A DNA stretch of 64,000 bases from Pseudomonas sp. stari2. GTDB lineage: Bacteria; Pseudomonadota; Gammaproteobacteria; Pseudomonadales; Pseudomonadaceae. A program made the translations under genes and the position numbers. Position 1 is the stretch's first letter. Every line of letters begins with the position of its first letter. The stretch spans positions 6,108,001 to 6,172,000 of the forward strand of contig NZ_CP099760.1 of assembly GCF_040760005.1 (NCBI RefSeq), written 5' to 3'. The notes beneath the pieces are model-generated. The model had not been told where the DNA came from and did no database searches. It was given only the letters and a program-made list of their open reading frames with translations. This document shows, in pieces, positions 25,790 through 30,683 of this stretch.

Positions 25790-26986
25790 ATGTCCCTGCC
25801 TAGCTTGCGCCTCAAAGCCAACGCCGACCGTCGCCTGCGCGCCGGCCATCTGTGGGTCTACAGCAACGAAATCGACGTGGCCGCCACCCCGTTGCACGGC
25901 TTCAAGGCCGGCGACCAGGCGATCCTCGAAGCCGCCGGCGGCAAGCCGCTGGGCATCGTGGCCATGAGCCCGAACAACCTGATCTGCGCCCGCCTGCTGT
26001 CGCGCGACATCAAGCTGCCGCTGGACAAGTCGCTGCTGGTGCACCGCCTGAACGTGGCCCTTTCCCTGCGTCAGCGCCTGTTCGACAAACCGTTCTATCG
26101 TCTGGTCTACGGCGATTCCGACCTGCTGCCGGGTCTGGTGGTCGACCGTTTCGGCGACATCCTCGTGGTGCAACTCGCTTCGGCGACCATGGAAGCCCAT
26201 AAAGATGACGTGATCGCGGCGCTCACCCAAGTGCTCAAGCCAAGCGGCATCCTGTTCAAGAACGACTCCGCCGCCCGCGATGCCGAAGGCCTCGAGCGTT
26301 ACACCGAAACCGTCTTCGGCGTGGTGCCGGAGTGGGTGGCGCTGGAAGAGAACGGCGTGAAATTCGAAGCACCAGTCGTTCAAGGTCAGAAAACCGGCTG
26401 GTTCTACGATCACCGCATGAACCGCGCCCGCCTCGCCCCTTACGCCAAGGGCAAACGCGTGCTGGACCTGTACAGCTACATCGGTGGCTGGGGCGTCCAA
26501 GCCGCCGCATTCGGTGCCAGCGAAGTGTTCTGCGTCGACGCATCGGGCTTCGCCCTCGACGGTGTGGAGCGCAATGCCGCGCTGAACGGTTTCGCCGACA
26601 AGATGACCTGCATCGAAGGCGACGTCTTCGAAGCCCTGAAGGAGCTCAAGGCCAGCGAAGAGCGCTTCGACGTGATCGTGGCCGATCCGCCTGCGTTCAT
26701 CAAACGCAAGAAGGACATGAAAAATGGTGAAGGCGCCTACCGCCGCCTGAACGAGCAAGCCATGCGCCTGCTCAACAAGGACGGCATCCTGGTCAGCGCT
26801 TCGTGCTCGATGCACCTGCCGGAAGACGATCTGCAGAACATCCTGCTGACCAGCGCCCGTCACCTGGATCGCAACATCCAGTTGCTGGAACGCGGCGGTC
26901 AAGGCCCGGATCATCCGGTGCACCCGGCCATTCCCGAAACCCGCTACATCAAGAGCATCACCTGCCGTCTGCTGCCCAACAGCTGA
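25790..26986 (+). CDS. rlmI: 23S rRNA (cytosine(1962)-C(5))-methyltransferase RlmI
   Basis: A 398-aa class I SAM methyltransferase with an N-terminal PUA domain (about residues 3-80, LKANADRRLRAGHLWVYSNEI). The SAM motif VLDLYSYIGGWGVQAAAFGA lies near residues 224-243, the catalytic-pocket motif VIVADPPAFIKRK near 295-307, and SASCSMHLPE holds the Cys nucleophile region. The open frame extends 48 codons upstream; the ATG at 25790 is chosen because the PUA domain begins there. A strong terminator follows. Confidence 0.92.
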   Translation: MSLPSLRLKANADRRLRAGHLWVYSNEIDVAATPLHGFKAGDQAILEAAGGKPLGIVAMSPNNLICARLLSRDIKLPLDKSLLVHRLNVALSLRQRLFDKPFYRLVYGDSDLLPGLVVDRFGDILVVQLASATMEAHKDDVIAALTQVLKPSGILFKNDSAARDAEGLERYTETVFGVVPEWVALEENGVKFEAPVVQGQKTGWFYDHRMNRARLAPYAKGKRVLDLYSYIGGWGVQAAAFGASEVFCVDASGFALDGVERNAALNGFADKMTCIEGDVFEALKELKASEERFDVIVADPPAFIKRKKDMKNGEGAYRRLNEQAMRLLNKDGILVSASCSMHLPEDDLQNILLTSARHLDRNIQLLERGGQGPDHPVHPAIPETRYIKSITCRLLPNS

Positions 26987-27012: not shown

Positions 27013-27042
27013 AAGGGGAGCCCACGGGCTCCCCTTCTTTTT
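27013..27042 (+). terminator. Rho-independent terminator after rlmI
   Basis: A perfect 11-bp stem has arms AAGGGGAGCCC (27013-27023) and GGGCTCCCCTT (27026-27036), followed by CTTTTT. It separates rlmI from the AT-rich stretch that follows, so the downstream cassette must carry its own promoter. Confidence 0.9.
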
Positions 27043-27045
27043 GTC

Positions 27046-27285
27046 TTGCTCTTTGCTTTCCTACATTGATCGTCTTGCCGACGTGCAGGATATTTCCTTA
27101 AATATTTTATTTACTGGAATTTAACTTACACACTTACTTTCAGCCAAAGATCACTCCGACAAAATTACTGGATTATTCCTACTTAATATTTGCTTGCGAT
27201 TAATCCATTACAAACTATTATTAAGTCGTCACCACGAAGGTGGCACAAACTAATCACGAAGCACCAACGAACAAGGAGTTCAATC
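27046..27285 (+). other. AT-rich leader/promoter region of the SagB-AurF cassette
   Basis: 240 nt without a gene. GC is 62 of 180 bases (34%) over 27061-27240, counted by hand, against GC-rich flanks. This marks either a strong regulatory region or foreign DNA. A possible sigma-70 promoter lies inside (annotated separately). No transposase, att-like direct repeat or tRNA fragment was seen at the border. Confidence 0.75.
27194..27221 (+). promoter_or_regulatory. Candidate sigma-70 promoter for the peptide/SagB cassette
   Basis: TTGCGA (27194-27199, 4 of 6) is followed 16 nt later by TATTAT (27216-27221, 5 of 6). The predicted start would lie about 55 nt before the small ORF. The region is AT-rich, which inflates chance matches. 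Confidence 0.4.
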
Positions 27286-27357
27286 ATGAAAGCAATTACT
27301 CTGGAATCCCGCACCCTCGCAAACCTGGCTTTTCTGGTCGCACCTAAAGCCCGCTAA
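27286..27357 (+). CDS. 23-aa peptide ORF, candidate precursor or leader peptide
   Basis: ATG to TAA encodes 23 residues beginning MKAITLESR and ending FLVAPKAR. A strong Shine-Dalgarno AAGGAG sits 8 nt upstream of the ATG, better than that of the enzyme gene that follows. It has two positive C-terminal residues, a hydrophobic middle (LANLAFLVA), and no Cys. Size and position, immediately before a hairpin and a tailoring-enzyme operon, resemble pqqA-type and other ribosomal-peptide precursors. It could instead be a regulatory leader peptide; it has no run of one amino acid that would suggest classical attenuation. I know of no named family match. That it is translated is likely; its role is inference. 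Confidence 0.65.
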   Translation: MKAITLESRTLANLAFLVAPKAR

Positions 27358-27365
27358 GTAAAGTT

Positions 27366-27394
27366 GGCGCTGGGTATGCCGGCTACCCAGCGCC
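27366..27394 (+). promoter_or_regulatory. Intercistronic hairpin between peptide ORF and SagB gene
   Basis: A perfect 11-bp stem has arms GGCGCTGGGTA (27366-27376) and TACCCAGCGCC (27384-27394) with a 7-nt loop. It starts 8 nt after the peptide stop. The following bases (TCTGGCAAAAC) contain no U-run, so it is not a standard terminator. Such hairpins after precursor genes often stabilise the short upstream transcript or cause partial read-through, giving more peptide than enzyme. Confidence 0.7.
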
Positions 27395-27431
27395 TCTGGC
27401 AAAACACTCATCCAGAGCAGCGTGCCCCAAC

Positions 27432-28505
27432 ATGCATATAAATCCTTATTTATTCATACTGCCACGAACGCCCGGCCAGATAGTCTGGAACTACAAAGAC
27501 CATACTCAGCACGAACTTGATTTTGAATACTCTTCTCGACTGGCACAACTTATTCACGAGCCGGCTTCATATGACAGCGACAACACAATAGACACAAAAC
27601 TTTTAAATGCAGGAATACTGACTTCTTCAAAAATCGCAGCGCCGGTCTGGGGCTGGGATGAACTGTCCAGAATCTACCATATCGGTACCCGGAATATTCC
27701 CTGCGAACACACGCCCCGAAATGTTCAGGAATGGTCCAGGCAATACCTCGAACACTGCAACACTGTACTTGCCACTTCGCCTCCGGCGGACGTCCCTGCA
27801 GACACCGGCCCGAACGCACTCATCGCCCTGCCCCCGCCGATGGCACCGACTGACGACAGCCTGTCGGGTTCACTGATCCGGCGAAAGACCTGCCGATCCT
27901 TCACCGGCGCCGCGGTGTCGCTGGGCGACGTCGGCACCTTGCTATACCTGTCCCTCGGTTACCTGCGAGAACGCGAAGCCGACGGTGACGACAGCATCGC
28001 CGAAGGGCTTGATGCGCGGCGCAGCAGCCCTTCCGGGGGCGGCCTCAATGCCTGCGCCGGTTTTGTGCTGGTGCAGAACGTCGACGGACTACCACCCGGC
28101 GTATACGCCTATCACCCGGTCGAACACGCCCTGAGTTTCGTCAACCCCTTGCCCGACACAGCGCCGGGCAATCTGCTGGGAGGCCAGCACTTCATCAACA
28201 ACCTGCCACTGGGCCTGTTCATCACCGCCCGTTTCGACAGGCTCTGGTGGAAATACCCGCACTCACGCGCCTATCGAATGGCGTTCGTCGAAGCCGGGCA
28301 TCTTTCACAGACGTTTCAATTGGTTGCCACCGCGCTAGGTATGAATACCTGGCTGACAGGCGCATTCGCCGACGATCAGGTTGAAACATTGCTGCAACTT
28401 CAGAACGGTACCGAGCAACCGCTGTTCTTCGTCGGTTGCGGAGAAAGCGACGGTCAGGCGATGTGCCAGGAAATGCGCGACCTGCTGCGTGAGACGCCAG
28501 CATGA
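27432..28505 (+). CDS. SagB/ThcOx-type FMN-dependent dehydrogenase
   Basis: A 357-aa protein. The C-terminal nitroreductase domain (about residues 145-357) shows SLIRRKTCRSF (147-157), the FMN-loop RRSSPSGGGLNAC (196-208), GVYAYHPVEH (223-232), a YxxxRAYRMAFVEAGH motif (about 265-280) and GMNTWLTGAF (293-302). These are marks of SagB/ThcOx enzymes, which oxidise azolines to azoles in ribosomal peptides or act as flavin oxidases in other pathways. The N-terminal 130 residues (LFILPRTPGQIVWNY and a following helical part) look like the winged-helix-type domain seen in several such enzymes; a peptide-binding role is only inferred. The first half is less GC-rich than its neighbours. Its stop overlaps the next start by 4 nt. 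No YcaO partner is present. Confidence 0.87.
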   Translation: MHINPYLFILPRTPGQIVWNYKDHTQHELDFEYSSRLAQLIHEPASYDSDNTIDTKLLNAGILTSSKIAAPVWGWDELSRIYHIGTRNIPCEHTPRNVQEWSRQYLEHCNTVLATSPPADVPADTGPNALIALPPPMAPTDDSLSGSLIRRKTCRSFTGAAVSLGDVGTLLYLSLGYLREREADGDDSIAEGLDARRSSPSGGGLNACAGFVLVQNVDGLPPGVYAYHPVEHALSFVNPLPDTAPGNLLGGQHFINNLPLGLFITARFDRLWWKYPHSRAYRMAFVEAGHLSQTFQLVATALGMNTWLTGAFADDQVETLLQLQNGTEQPLFFVGCGESDGQAMCQEMRDLLRETPA

Positions 28506-29458
28506 GCCTGCTCTCCCAGGCCCCGCTCTTCGAGTTTTCGCTGGGTGACTGGAGCACTCGCGCATCCGTGCGAACCAGTACCCACGATTACCGCTTGCCG
28601 GCTGATATAGCGCAACAACTGGAAACCCGTCACTGGTTCCCGCCGGCATTTCTGCCTTACCTCGCCCACCCGGCCATCGAAGCCGCAGGCCGCTTGGTGG
28701 TGCACCGGCTCACGGCCAATCATCTGGTGCACTTTCTCGACTACACCACCCTGCTCGAACACCGCATCGTCAATCGCGCCGTGGAAGTCATCGTCCACGG
28801 CGAACTGCCGGTCGATGTTCCGCCGCCCATGAAAACCGCCGCGCTGCAGCTCTACACCGATGAGGGCTACCACGCCCTGTTTTCCCATCAGGTCGCGGAA
28901 CAGATCGCCAGGTTCTACGGCATCACCGGGCGCCCGGTGGTGCCCAGGCGGATCACTCGCATGATCAGGCTGATCGACGAAACCCTTCCGGAGCAGCGAC
29001 CGCTGACATGGTTTCTGCTCGGCTTCGTCTCGGAAACCATCATTGCCCGGGAACTGCTCGACGTCTGCCGGGACAGCCTGGTGTCCGGGGTCAACGACAT
29101 GCTGCGCGATCACCTCACCGACGAGGCGCGCCACAGTCGCTACTTCACTGAAGTGTTCCATTACCTCTGGCTGCATCTGGGACCGCAGCAACGAGCTTTC
29201 GCCGCCACCACCCTGCTCGAGATCTTCGGGATTTTCTTCGAAACCGATGAACAGTGGCTGCGGCAAAGCCTGTGCGCCACCGGGATTGCCGACGGTGCCG
29301 TGCTGGAAATACTCGACAGCCTGACAACAGCACAAGCCTCCCGACGACGTGCCCGGACAGGCGGCATCGCCACATTGAATGCACTGAGGAAGGCCGGATT
29401 TTTCGCCGAACCTTACAACCAGATACTTTTCGCCAGGGCAGGATTGATCGATGGGTAA
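28502..29458 (+). CDS. AurF-type diiron N-oxygenase
   Basis: A 318-aa, largely helical protein. The metal-ligand pattern of p-aminobenzoate N-oxygenase AurF is complete: Glu86, then Glu121-x-x-His124 (YTDEGYH) exactly 35 residues later as in AurF, Glu178 (or Glu184) in VSETIIARE, and His204-x3-Glu208-x2-His211 (HLTDEARH). The extra His ligand (here His204) is diagnostic of AurF/CmlI arylamine or amine N-oxygenases versus ferritin-like proteins. Expected chemistry: O2-dependent conversion of an amine to hydroxylamine, nitroso or nitro. The substrate is unknown. It overlaps the SagB gene by 4 nt and the exporter gene by 8 nt, so all three are one translationally coupled operon. Confidence 0.86.
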   Translation: MSLLSQAPLFEFSLGDWSTRASVRTSTHDYRLPADIAQQLETRHWFPPAFLPYLAHPAIEAAGRLVVHRLTANHLVHFLDYTTLLEHRIVNRAVEVIVHGELPVDVPPPMKTAALQLYTDEGYHALFSHQVAEQIARFYGITGRPVVPRRITRMIRLIDETLPEQRPLTWFLLGFVSETIIARELLDVCRDSLVSGVNDMLRDHLTDEARHSRYFTEVFHYLWLHLGPQQRAFAATTLLEIFGIFFETDEQWLRQSLCATGIADGAVLEILDSLTTAQASRRRARTGGIATLNALRKAGFFAEPYNQILFARAGLIDG

Positions 29459-30683
29459 AGGAAAATCCGGGGTGACGACCCGACAGCGTCGCGGGGCCGT
29501 CAGCCTGTTGCTGGCGATGGTATTGCTGGGTGTTTTTCCGCTGGATGTCGTGCTGCCTTCATTTCCGGCGCTGGCCGAGCACTTTCGCAGCGCCCCGGCC
29601 GACATCGCGCTGTCAATCAGCCTGTTCGCCGTCGGCATCGCCTTCGCCCAGTTGCTGATCGGACCACTGTCGGATGTAATCGGGCGCAAGGGCCTGCTGC
29701 TCGCCGGCATGAGCGTTTCAATGCTCGGCGCCCTCGGCTGTGTAATGACCACTGACTATTCGCTGTTCCTGATGTTCCGGGTCGTGCAGGCGCTGGGCTG
29801 CGGTTGCTTCGTGCTGTCCCAGGCGCTGGTCCAGGATCTGTTCGAAGGCGAGGAACGCGATCGTCTGCGAATCCTGATGGTCACCGCCGGCGGGATTTTC
29901 ATCTCGGTATCGCCTCTTGTCGGTACTTTCCTGCAGGCAACCCTGGGCTGGCGTGGCAGCTTCTGGGTGTTCATCGCATTATCGGCCGTGGTACTGCTCA
30001 AGGCCTGGCTGTTTCTGGAAAACAGCCGACCGACCACCCGTGGCACACGCACGAACTTCCTCACGGCTTACCGACGGGTGCTGGGGGATTTCGACTTCGT
30101 CGGCTACTGGCTGATTTCGGCATTTGCGTTCGCCTGCCACTTTTCATTCATCGTGATATCGCCGCTGATCTTCATGGACCGGCTGCAATTGTCCGCCTAC
30201 GAGTTCTCCTTGATCCTGCTGATCTACGGTGCGGCTTACGTCACCGGAGGCATTCTCGCCAGCGTGCTGAGCAGGCGCATCAGCAGCGGCCAACAGATGG
30301 TCGTCGGTCTGAGCCTGATCCTGTTCGCCGGCGTGACCATGTTGTACTTGTCGTCGAGTTTTGCTCTGGCTCCAGCGACAGTGCTGATCCCGATGCTGAT
30401 CTGCACCGCCGGCACCACCATTGCCCGGCCGGCCGCCACCTCCAGGGCCATGAGCCTGTTTGCGGACAACGCCGGCACCTCGGCCTCGGCCGGCAGCACG
30501 ATCACCTTCATCTGCGGCGGGTTGATCAGCGCTTTGATCAGCCTGAGCCCGGCCAATCTGCAATCCACCCTGGGTTACGCCTTTGTCTTGCTCAGTGGTG
30601 TGGCGCTCGCCTTGAACAACCGGATCAGCCGTCGCGCCAGAGTCTTGCAAGCCGACGCCATCGCACAGCCGGGTGGCGATTGA
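29451..30683 (+). CDS. MFS exporter, Bcr/CflA family
   Basis: A 410-aa transporter with about 12 membrane spans. MFS motif A is GPLSDVIGRKG (about residues 71-81). The N-terminal pattern LLGVFPLDVVLPSFPALAEHF is typical of the Bcr/CflA drug-efflux subfamily (compare the D-x-x-LPS-x-P motif). It is the last gene of the cassette, starting 8 nt inside the N-oxygenase gene. The likely role is export of the cassette's product and self-protection. C-terminal tail is short and hydrophilic. Confidence 0.9.
   Translation: MGKGKSGVTTRQRRGAVSLLLAMVLLGVFPLDVVLPSFPALAEHFRSAPADIALSISLFAVGIAFAQLLIGPLSDVIGRKGLLLAGMSVSMLGALGCVMTTDYSLFLMFRVVQALGCGCFVLSQALVQDLFEGEERDRLRILMVTAGGIFISVSPLVGTFLQATLGWRGSFWVFIALSAVVLLKAWLFLENSRPTTRGTRTNFLTAYRRVLGDFDFVGYWLISAFAFACHFSFIVISPLIFMDRLQLSAYEFSLILLIYGAAYVTGGILASVLSRRISSGQQMVVGLSLILFAGVTMLYLSSSFALAPATVLIPMLICTAGTTIARPAATSRAMSLFADNAGTSASAGSTITFICGGLISALISLSPANLQSTLGYAFVLLSGVALALNNRISRRARVLQADAIAQPGGD

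Follow-up and report, generated by a model that had tools for sequence, protein, structure and literature searches.

We examined a window of 64,000 nucleotides from Pseudomonas sp. stari2 (contig NZ_CP099760.1, positions 6,108,001 to 6,172,000), which is part of a 6.31-Mb single-contig Pseudomonas chromosome. The window carries a cassette of four genes encoding a 23-residue peptide, a SagB/ThcOx-type dehydrogenase, an AurF-type diiron oxygenase, and an exporter of the major facilitator superfamily (MFS). All four parts are genuine and conserved, and they occur together across loci. We consider it fairly probable that they constitute a minimal pathway resembling those of ribosomally synthesized and post-translationally modified peptides (RiPPs), in which the peptide is the precursor and is worked on by the SagB-type enzyme and then by the AurF-type enzyme. 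According to our best reading of the sequence comparisons, SagB would be a constant maturase and the tailoring enzymes would be exchangeable. The parts of the cassette are listed below (positions are those of the window).

27273..27278, + strand: ribosome-binding site AAGGAG of the tiny open reading frame (ORF), 7 nt before its ATG
27286..27357, + strand: tiny ORF for the 23-residue precursor-like peptide MKAITLESRTLANLAFLVAPKAR (ATG at 27286, stop codon at 27355-27357)
27286..27357, + strand: regions of this peptide, namely, a leader-like MKxIxLE, a core-like [IL]ANLxxLV, and a basic tail
27366..27394, + strand: hairpin between the peptide and SagB genes, with GCCGGC in its apical loop
27432..28505, + strand: SagB/ThcOx-type flavin mononucleotide (FMN) dehydrogenase, 357 amino acids, above the cut-offs of TIGR03605 and PF00881
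28502..29458, + strand: AurF-type diiron oxygenase, 318 amino acids, above the cut-off of PF11583
29451..30683, + strand: MFS exporter resembling the Bcr/CflA kind, 410 amino acids, above the cut-off of PF07690

All of the genes are encoded on the + strand between a methyltransferase gene and ilvD, and overlaps of 4 nt (SagB and AurF) and 8 nt (AurF and MFS) join the three larger ones. A sequence-only reading of the window had listed the tiny ORF with its ribosome-binding site, the hairpin, and three overlapping genes, and the coordinates and family searches bear out this list.

Both enzymes belong to the families that the same reading had named. The SagB-type protein scored 117.5 bits against TIGR03605 (cut-off 78.4) and 59.1 bits against PF00881 (cut-off 23.5), while the AurF-type protein scored 73.7 bits against PF11583 (cut-off 29.6). 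The Lys-Tyr pair K274-Y275, which has a catalytic role in McbC, was kept in all 111 SagB copies (not counting partial ones). The structure model of the SagB-type protein (predicted local distance difference test [pLDDT] score, 82) had ThcOx (5lq4) as its nearest fold by Foldseek, with residues 1-341 aligned; no separate match was listed for the N-terminal domain alone. This domain, which resembles a RiPP recognition element (RRE), comprises three strands and two helices in the model (residues 7-59). The TIGR03605 score, the Lys-Tyr pair, and the fold place the protein among the SagB/ThcOx dehydrogenases. It has the FMN nitroreductase fold and the Lys-Tyr pair in common with ThcOx/CyaGox (cyanobactin oxidase) and McbC (microcin B17), and the alignment with ThcOx includes the N-terminal domain. 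In contrast to the systems of ThcOx and McbC, the cassette has no azoline-forming partner, conserved Cys, Ser, or Thr residues are absent from the core of its peptide, and the precursor is only 23 residues long. The best-scoring NCBIfam model was TIGR04511 (putative peptide maturation dehydrogenase), at 159.7 bits and below its cut-off of 240; the system of that family has longer precursors and a cyclase. The closest named relative of the protein among the matches listed was from P. kribbensis (91%).

Seven residues of the AurF-type protein (E86, E121, H124, E178, H204, E208, and H211) were matched by alignment with AurF (3chh) to what we take to be the metal ligands of that enzyme, and all seven were intact in 101 of 101 AurF copies (partial copies left out). 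Together with the PF11583 score, they assign the protein to the AurF diiron oxygenases. Its nearest folds are AurF (aureothin) and CmlI (chloramphenicol); however, its identity to them is 20-23%, and its gene lies beside a tiny peptide gene rather than in a polyketide synthase (PKS) or non-ribosomal peptide synthetase (NRPS) cluster. The protein scored 59.5 bits against NF045603, the NCBIfam model of 4-aminobenzoate N-oxygenase, far below the cut-off of 620. Among the matches listed, its closest named relative was from Pseudomonas sp. HS6 (88%). The same genome has a second AurF-family gene far from the cassette (L001, G000:C1:347627-348358; 76.2 bits against PF11583). Regarding the exporter, which the sequence-only reading had called Bcr/CflA, membership of the MFS was upheld by PF07690, whereas the narrower label was just missed (TIGR00710, 188 bits; cut-off 200.9). 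Based on family resemblance, the exporter may work like the Bcr/CflA kind.

To assess how constantly the peptide accompanies the enzymes, 398 Pseudomonas genomes were searched with the AurF protein and with a SagB profile, matching loci were fetched, and ORFs starting with M..[IVAL].[LMI][EQ] were sought upstream of SagB. A peptide of 21-58 residues with an MKxIxLE-like start was present just upstream in 118 of the 119 SagB-bearing loci. The only locus without it was L078, a decaying cassette in which the peptide was lost and the SagB remnant matched over just 74 residues. When these stretches were scanned for the motif on their opposite strand, 3 of 118 loci gave a match, and a further match on the same strand occurred in 4 of 118. 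With our own duplicate (L003) left out, the start codon was ATG in 117 of 117 peptides read, and a Shine-Dalgarno-like match preceded the peptide in 113 of the 117 loci. The peptide, AurF, and MFS were also present together in every one of 80 named GTDB loci; these were the best 80 of 188 and, thus, are the nearest relatives by construction and add no unbiased count. A conserved precursor-peptide gene thus stands beside modifying enzymes, as in RiPPs, and the parts co-occur when neighborhoods are compared across Pseudomonas. The sequence-only reading had noted that its idea of peptide tailoring would fail if the enzymes occurred mostly without the tiny ORF, which is not the case.

The consensus of the peptide in AurF-bearing cassettes is MKxIxLExxx[IL]ANLxxLV. 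We examined its conservation in 168 loci (from the sample and the named loci, which overlap) with a 23-residue peptide chosen for Asn13, corresponding to 118 distinct DNA versions and 82 distinct protein versions. Beside N13, which was fixed by choice, A12 and L14 were invariant across the 118 versions. The codons at these sites drifted synonymously, with four for Ala12, two for Asn13, and five for Leu14. A simple count over pairs that are not independent gave a pN/pS ratio of 0.41. The basic tail was also conserved, with K21 present in 109 of the 118 versions and R23 in 113. When the peptide has another length, position 14 may also be occupied by Trp, Met, or Phe, and L091 has Glu at position 12. 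At the sequence level, these patterns show purifying selection on the peptide as a protein, and we conclude that the tiny ORF is evidently translated and selected as such.

Cassettes of this family occur in four kinds. Kind A comprises the peptide, SagB, AurF, and MFS. Kind B, found in seven loci at the same site between the methyltransferase gene and ilvD, comprises the peptide, SagB, and MFS without AurF; the core is LAAFALIGMPK in L135, L176, and L177, and SAGHHxMLGTxK or near it in L172-L175. The SagB frames of the seven loci have no stop codon, and stops in the pump are confined to the C-terminal end of the match. Kind C1 (L178, L179, and L183) has a 55-58-residue peptide (...NNQSNDAYQTPHF...), SagB, a NodU-type carbamoyltransferase, and MFS, with SagB being shortened in L183. 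Kind C2 (L180-L182) has a 33-residue peptide (...SN[ND]AY[NH]xL[IV]T...), SagB, a TPR-methyltransferase fusion, a carbamoyltransferase, and MFS. The extra enzymes were confirmed by Pfam in one C1 (L178) and one C2 locus (L182), and were assigned in the others by the lengths and starts of ORFs. The SagB protein of P. donghuensis (P0243) is 58% identical to that of L182.

Across these kinds, the peptide start is kept as Mxx[IVA]x[LMI][EQ], and the cores are IANLxFLV, LAAFALIG, SAGHHxMLG, SNDAYQ, and SNNAYN. As in RiPPs, the leader is recognizable across variants, partly by selection, while the core diversifies. Sequence comparisons thus show that the putative core differs between the versions with AurF, with no tailoring enzyme, and with the carbamoyltransferase. 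A core that changes with the tailoring enzyme is as expected of a substrate.

AurF was present in 103 of the 118 peptide-bearing loci, and Asn13 was found in all 103. Among the 15 loci without AurF, position 13 was Ala in three, Gly in three, and His in one; six loci were of kind C, and two had Asn. One of the latter, L186, was rejected as an exception because its contig ends inside SagB and has an AurF gene (L090) at its other end. In the assembly concerned (G189), the same region occurs twice (L107 and L090/L186); one copy has short AurF and pump frames, and in the other these frames are longer and lie at the two ends of a 51-kb contig. This may be an assembly duplicate or a circular element. 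We also constructed a SagB tree of 111 sequences by a quick LG+G4 search with SH-like approximate likelihood ratio test (SH-aLRT) support only, rooted on a very distant row, after the exclusion of seven partial loci; the rows flagged for long branches include those of kind C, L085, and L091. In this tree, the kind B loci, seven in all, formed one clade inside the AurF-bearing rows (SH-aLRT 96 to 99) and, therefore, AurF and Asn13 most likely went together. The tree contains three AurF contrasts, including the L186 artefact, and Asn13 follows AurF in the other two. The coupling between Asn13 and AurF is suggestive, not significant. The sequence-only reading had proposed that the product possibly derives from the peptide, and the change of core with tailoring enzyme, in two independent changes, supports the substrate role of the peptide. 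Within a larger family of cassettes built from a peptide, SagB, and an exporter, the AurF gene appears to be a part that can be exchanged. Other cassettes are decaying: L079 has a truncated SagB and Gln in place of Glu7 in its peptide, and L089 has an AurF gene with stops, with no SagB found.

We propose the following mechanism. The first seven residues of the peptide, MKxIxLE, have an alternating pattern and may pair as a strand with the N-terminal domain of SagB. SagB, with its FMN and Lys-Tyr pair, would then oxidize the core of the peptide. The AurF-type diiron enzyme would subsequently oxygenate at or beside Asn13, as the co-variation of Asn13 with AurF suggests. Host proteases may trim the peptide to release a small core fragment, which the MFS pump would export. 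The hairpin behind the peptide gene, with its covariation, also fits this pathway; as in other peptide operons, it may govern how much enzyme mRNA is made relative to peptide mRNA. Judging from the enzyme families, the product may be small, N-oxidized, and dehydrogenated, as the sequence-only reading had proposed. The absence of a dedicated protease from the unit and an exporter of the small-molecule type argue for a small product, in which respect the cassette may be likened to the case of pyrroloquinoline quinone (PQQ).

Several observations weigh against this proposal. The third helix of the N-terminal domain of SagB (residues 75-79) is located in a stretch with a pLDDT under 50, and this RRE-like domain had no match in Pfam or NCBIfam. 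The start motif also served to find the peptides, such that the likeness of their starts is due in part to selection. Only two independent changes tie Asn13 to AurF, with which a sign test (p=0.5) cannot reach significance. L184 is a decayed copy in which a deletion took away AurF and left SagB matched over 120 residues; its peptide and pump remain, and Asn13 is retained, which is to be expected soon after a deletion, yet is an exception. No protease, immunity gene, or regulator was seen that belongs to the unit. Furthermore, AurF enzymes are known to act on small free amines, and the side-chain amide of Asn would be unusual as a substrate. The normal substrates of SagB enzymes are azolines, and nothing in the cassette makes one.

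The tiny ORF may instead encode a regulatory leader peptide, the translation of which tunes the SagB, AurF, and MFS genes together with the hairpin, while the substrate of the enzymes would be a free small molecule. We regard this as unlikely. The hairpin behind the ORF is strong and covaries: over 24 aligned A-type sequences, 95% of the cells of its 10-pair stem were paired, and both sides had changed in 7 of the 10 pairs (32 cells versus 10.7 in shuffles); slid versions were 36-53% paired. GCCGGC in the loop was invariant across the 24 sequences; this palindrome could permit loop-loop contacts between transcripts. A hairpin was predicted in all 23 loci shown, of kinds A, B, and C, with z-scores between -0.5 and -7.1; its strength was uneven, with six of these 23 loci, which were folded together with shuffles, scoring above -2. 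Each of the 155 distinct gaps between the peptide and SagB genes (40-120 nt) folded at -12 kcal/mol or lower, and TTTT was present in 67 of them, such that weak termination is possible in some strains. The peptides of kinds A and B, at just 21-26 residues, are also short enough for a leader peptide. However, the conservation of the peptide is at the amino-acid level, as seen in the synonymous drift at residues 12 to 14, no run of codons for one amino acid is present, and the core varies with the tailoring enzymes. A terminator scan of the window listed none on the + strand at 27366-27394 and, thus, the hairpin of this genome appears to be something other than a plain terminator; it had no Rfam match.

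It is quite unlikely, in our opinion, that the peptide is a scaffold, to which an amino acid is attached, worked on, and released, or a small subunit that activates SagB. TglA of 3-thiaglutamate is a precedent for such a scaffold (PMC9016710). The MFS family leads us to expect a small substrate for the exporter, and the conserved basic tail (K21 and R23) is consistent with this role. However, the cassette has no peptide aminoacyl-tRNA ligase, and conservation is strongest internally (A12-N13-L14), not at the C terminus. A search of the genome of Pseudomonas sp. stari2 for Lant_dehydr_N was empty, as it was in every control genome, and, thus, shows little. An azole-forming pathway, of the thiazole/oxazole-modified microcin (TOMM) or linear azole-containing peptide (LAP) type, with its cyclodehydratase elsewhere in the genome is highly improbable: SagB is the classical azoline dehydrogenase and the genome has one YcaO gene; however, this 736-codon frame is 3.2 Mb away from the cassette, YcaO also occurs in the E. 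coli control, which suggests a housekeeping protein, and the core lacks the conserved Cys, Ser, or Thr expected of these peptides.

Returning to the RiPP-like pathway, we compared the cassette with described Pseudomonas systems. The cluster for 4-formylaminooxyvinylglycine (FVG), gvg, of P. fluorescens WH6 has the tiny essential ORFs gvgB and gvgG, a NodU-type carbamoyltransferase, exporters, and a small product, as described in PMC8067088 and PMC8064604. GvgB is described there as lysine-rich, and the gvg gene table names neither SagB nor AurF (PMC8067088). We rejected a link based on the N-O bond, the vinyl group, the tiny ORFs, and the carbamoyltransferase as a resemblance of logic only. 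Cluster OS3 of strain Os17 combines a small protein with SagB; however, it has an 85-residue precursor, a 650-residue SagB protein, an acetyltransferase, and a HEXXH protein, and AurF and MFS do not occur in its text (PMC7726476), unlike in the cassette. The cassette does not appear in the curated list of P. fluorescens RiPP clusters in PMC8719888. A description of the cassette was not found in the literature searched, which comprised open-access papers only. The cassette is RiPP-like, and SagB without a cyclodehydratase and exchangeable tailoring set it apart from known kinds. We tentatively suggest, as a possibility rather than a probability, a new class of ribosomal product in which a peptide of 21-26 residues is processed by a stand-alone SagB without a cyclodehydratase, the tailoring enzyme (an AurF diiron oxygenase, none, a carbamoyltransferase, or a methyltransferase plus carbamoyltransferase) is swapped together with its core residue, and AurF acts at Asn13 or the adjacent bond. 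If the suggestion is correct, we know of no other member of the AurF family that oxygenates a ribosomal peptide.

The neighbors of the cassette in the window are as follows.

Ending at 26986: S-adenosylmethionine-dependent methyltransferase gene (PUA and Methyltrans_SAM domains), upstream neighbor, which we take to be RlmI-like
27013..27036, + strand: terminator-like hairpin with a T-run behind the methyltransferase gene, separating this gene from the cassette
30939: ilvD, downstream neighbor

The SagB profile matched 115 of the 398 Pseudomonas genomes (E-value of 1e-45 or better; all cassette kinds). Both usual neighbors were seen in 64 of the 89 loci longer than 6 kb. The cassette also keeps its four parts at other sites, where its neighbors include a resistance-nodulation-division (RND) pump, a LysE gene, a glutaminase, and a gamma-glutamyltranspeptidase. 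A Pfam scan of 17 flanking proteins from 11 loci outside the usual site found no YcaO, NRPS, or PKS; the sequence-only reading had named membership of a known NRPS pathway elsewhere as an outcome that would speak against it. The only recurring family in these flanks was that of GntR-type regulators, in two loci, and the sole peptidase-like family was the gamma-glutamyltranspeptidase, in L076. Outside the genus, we searched 244 genomes of the order with an AurF profile and 398 of the phylum with the SagB profile; both sets include some Pseudomonas. The only SagB above 150 bits that was not from Pseudomonas (L136, genome G676) lies beside a 182-codon ORF without a Pfam match, and no AurF or MFS relatives were found within the 9 kb fetched. 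In another family of the order, two genomes (G467, L138; G548, L137) have MFS-AurF pairs without SagB in the stretch fetched. In L137, the MFS and AurF-type genes are followed by a methyltransferase-like ORF. Eighteen plasmid records matched the query, and the 10 listed match only its ilvD end.

If our interpretation is correct, more than a quarter of the Pseudomonas species sampled (115 of 398 genomes) carry an undescribed pathway for a peptide-derived metabolite, which genome mining that relies on YcaO, lanthionine, or radical-SAM enzymes would miss. The presence or absence of AurF in cassettes that share one chromosomal site represents a natural experiment on what SagB does without an azoline, and also bears on whether an AurF enzyme can act on a ribosomal peptide. 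With just four small genes, the pathway may easily be rebuilt in E. coli.

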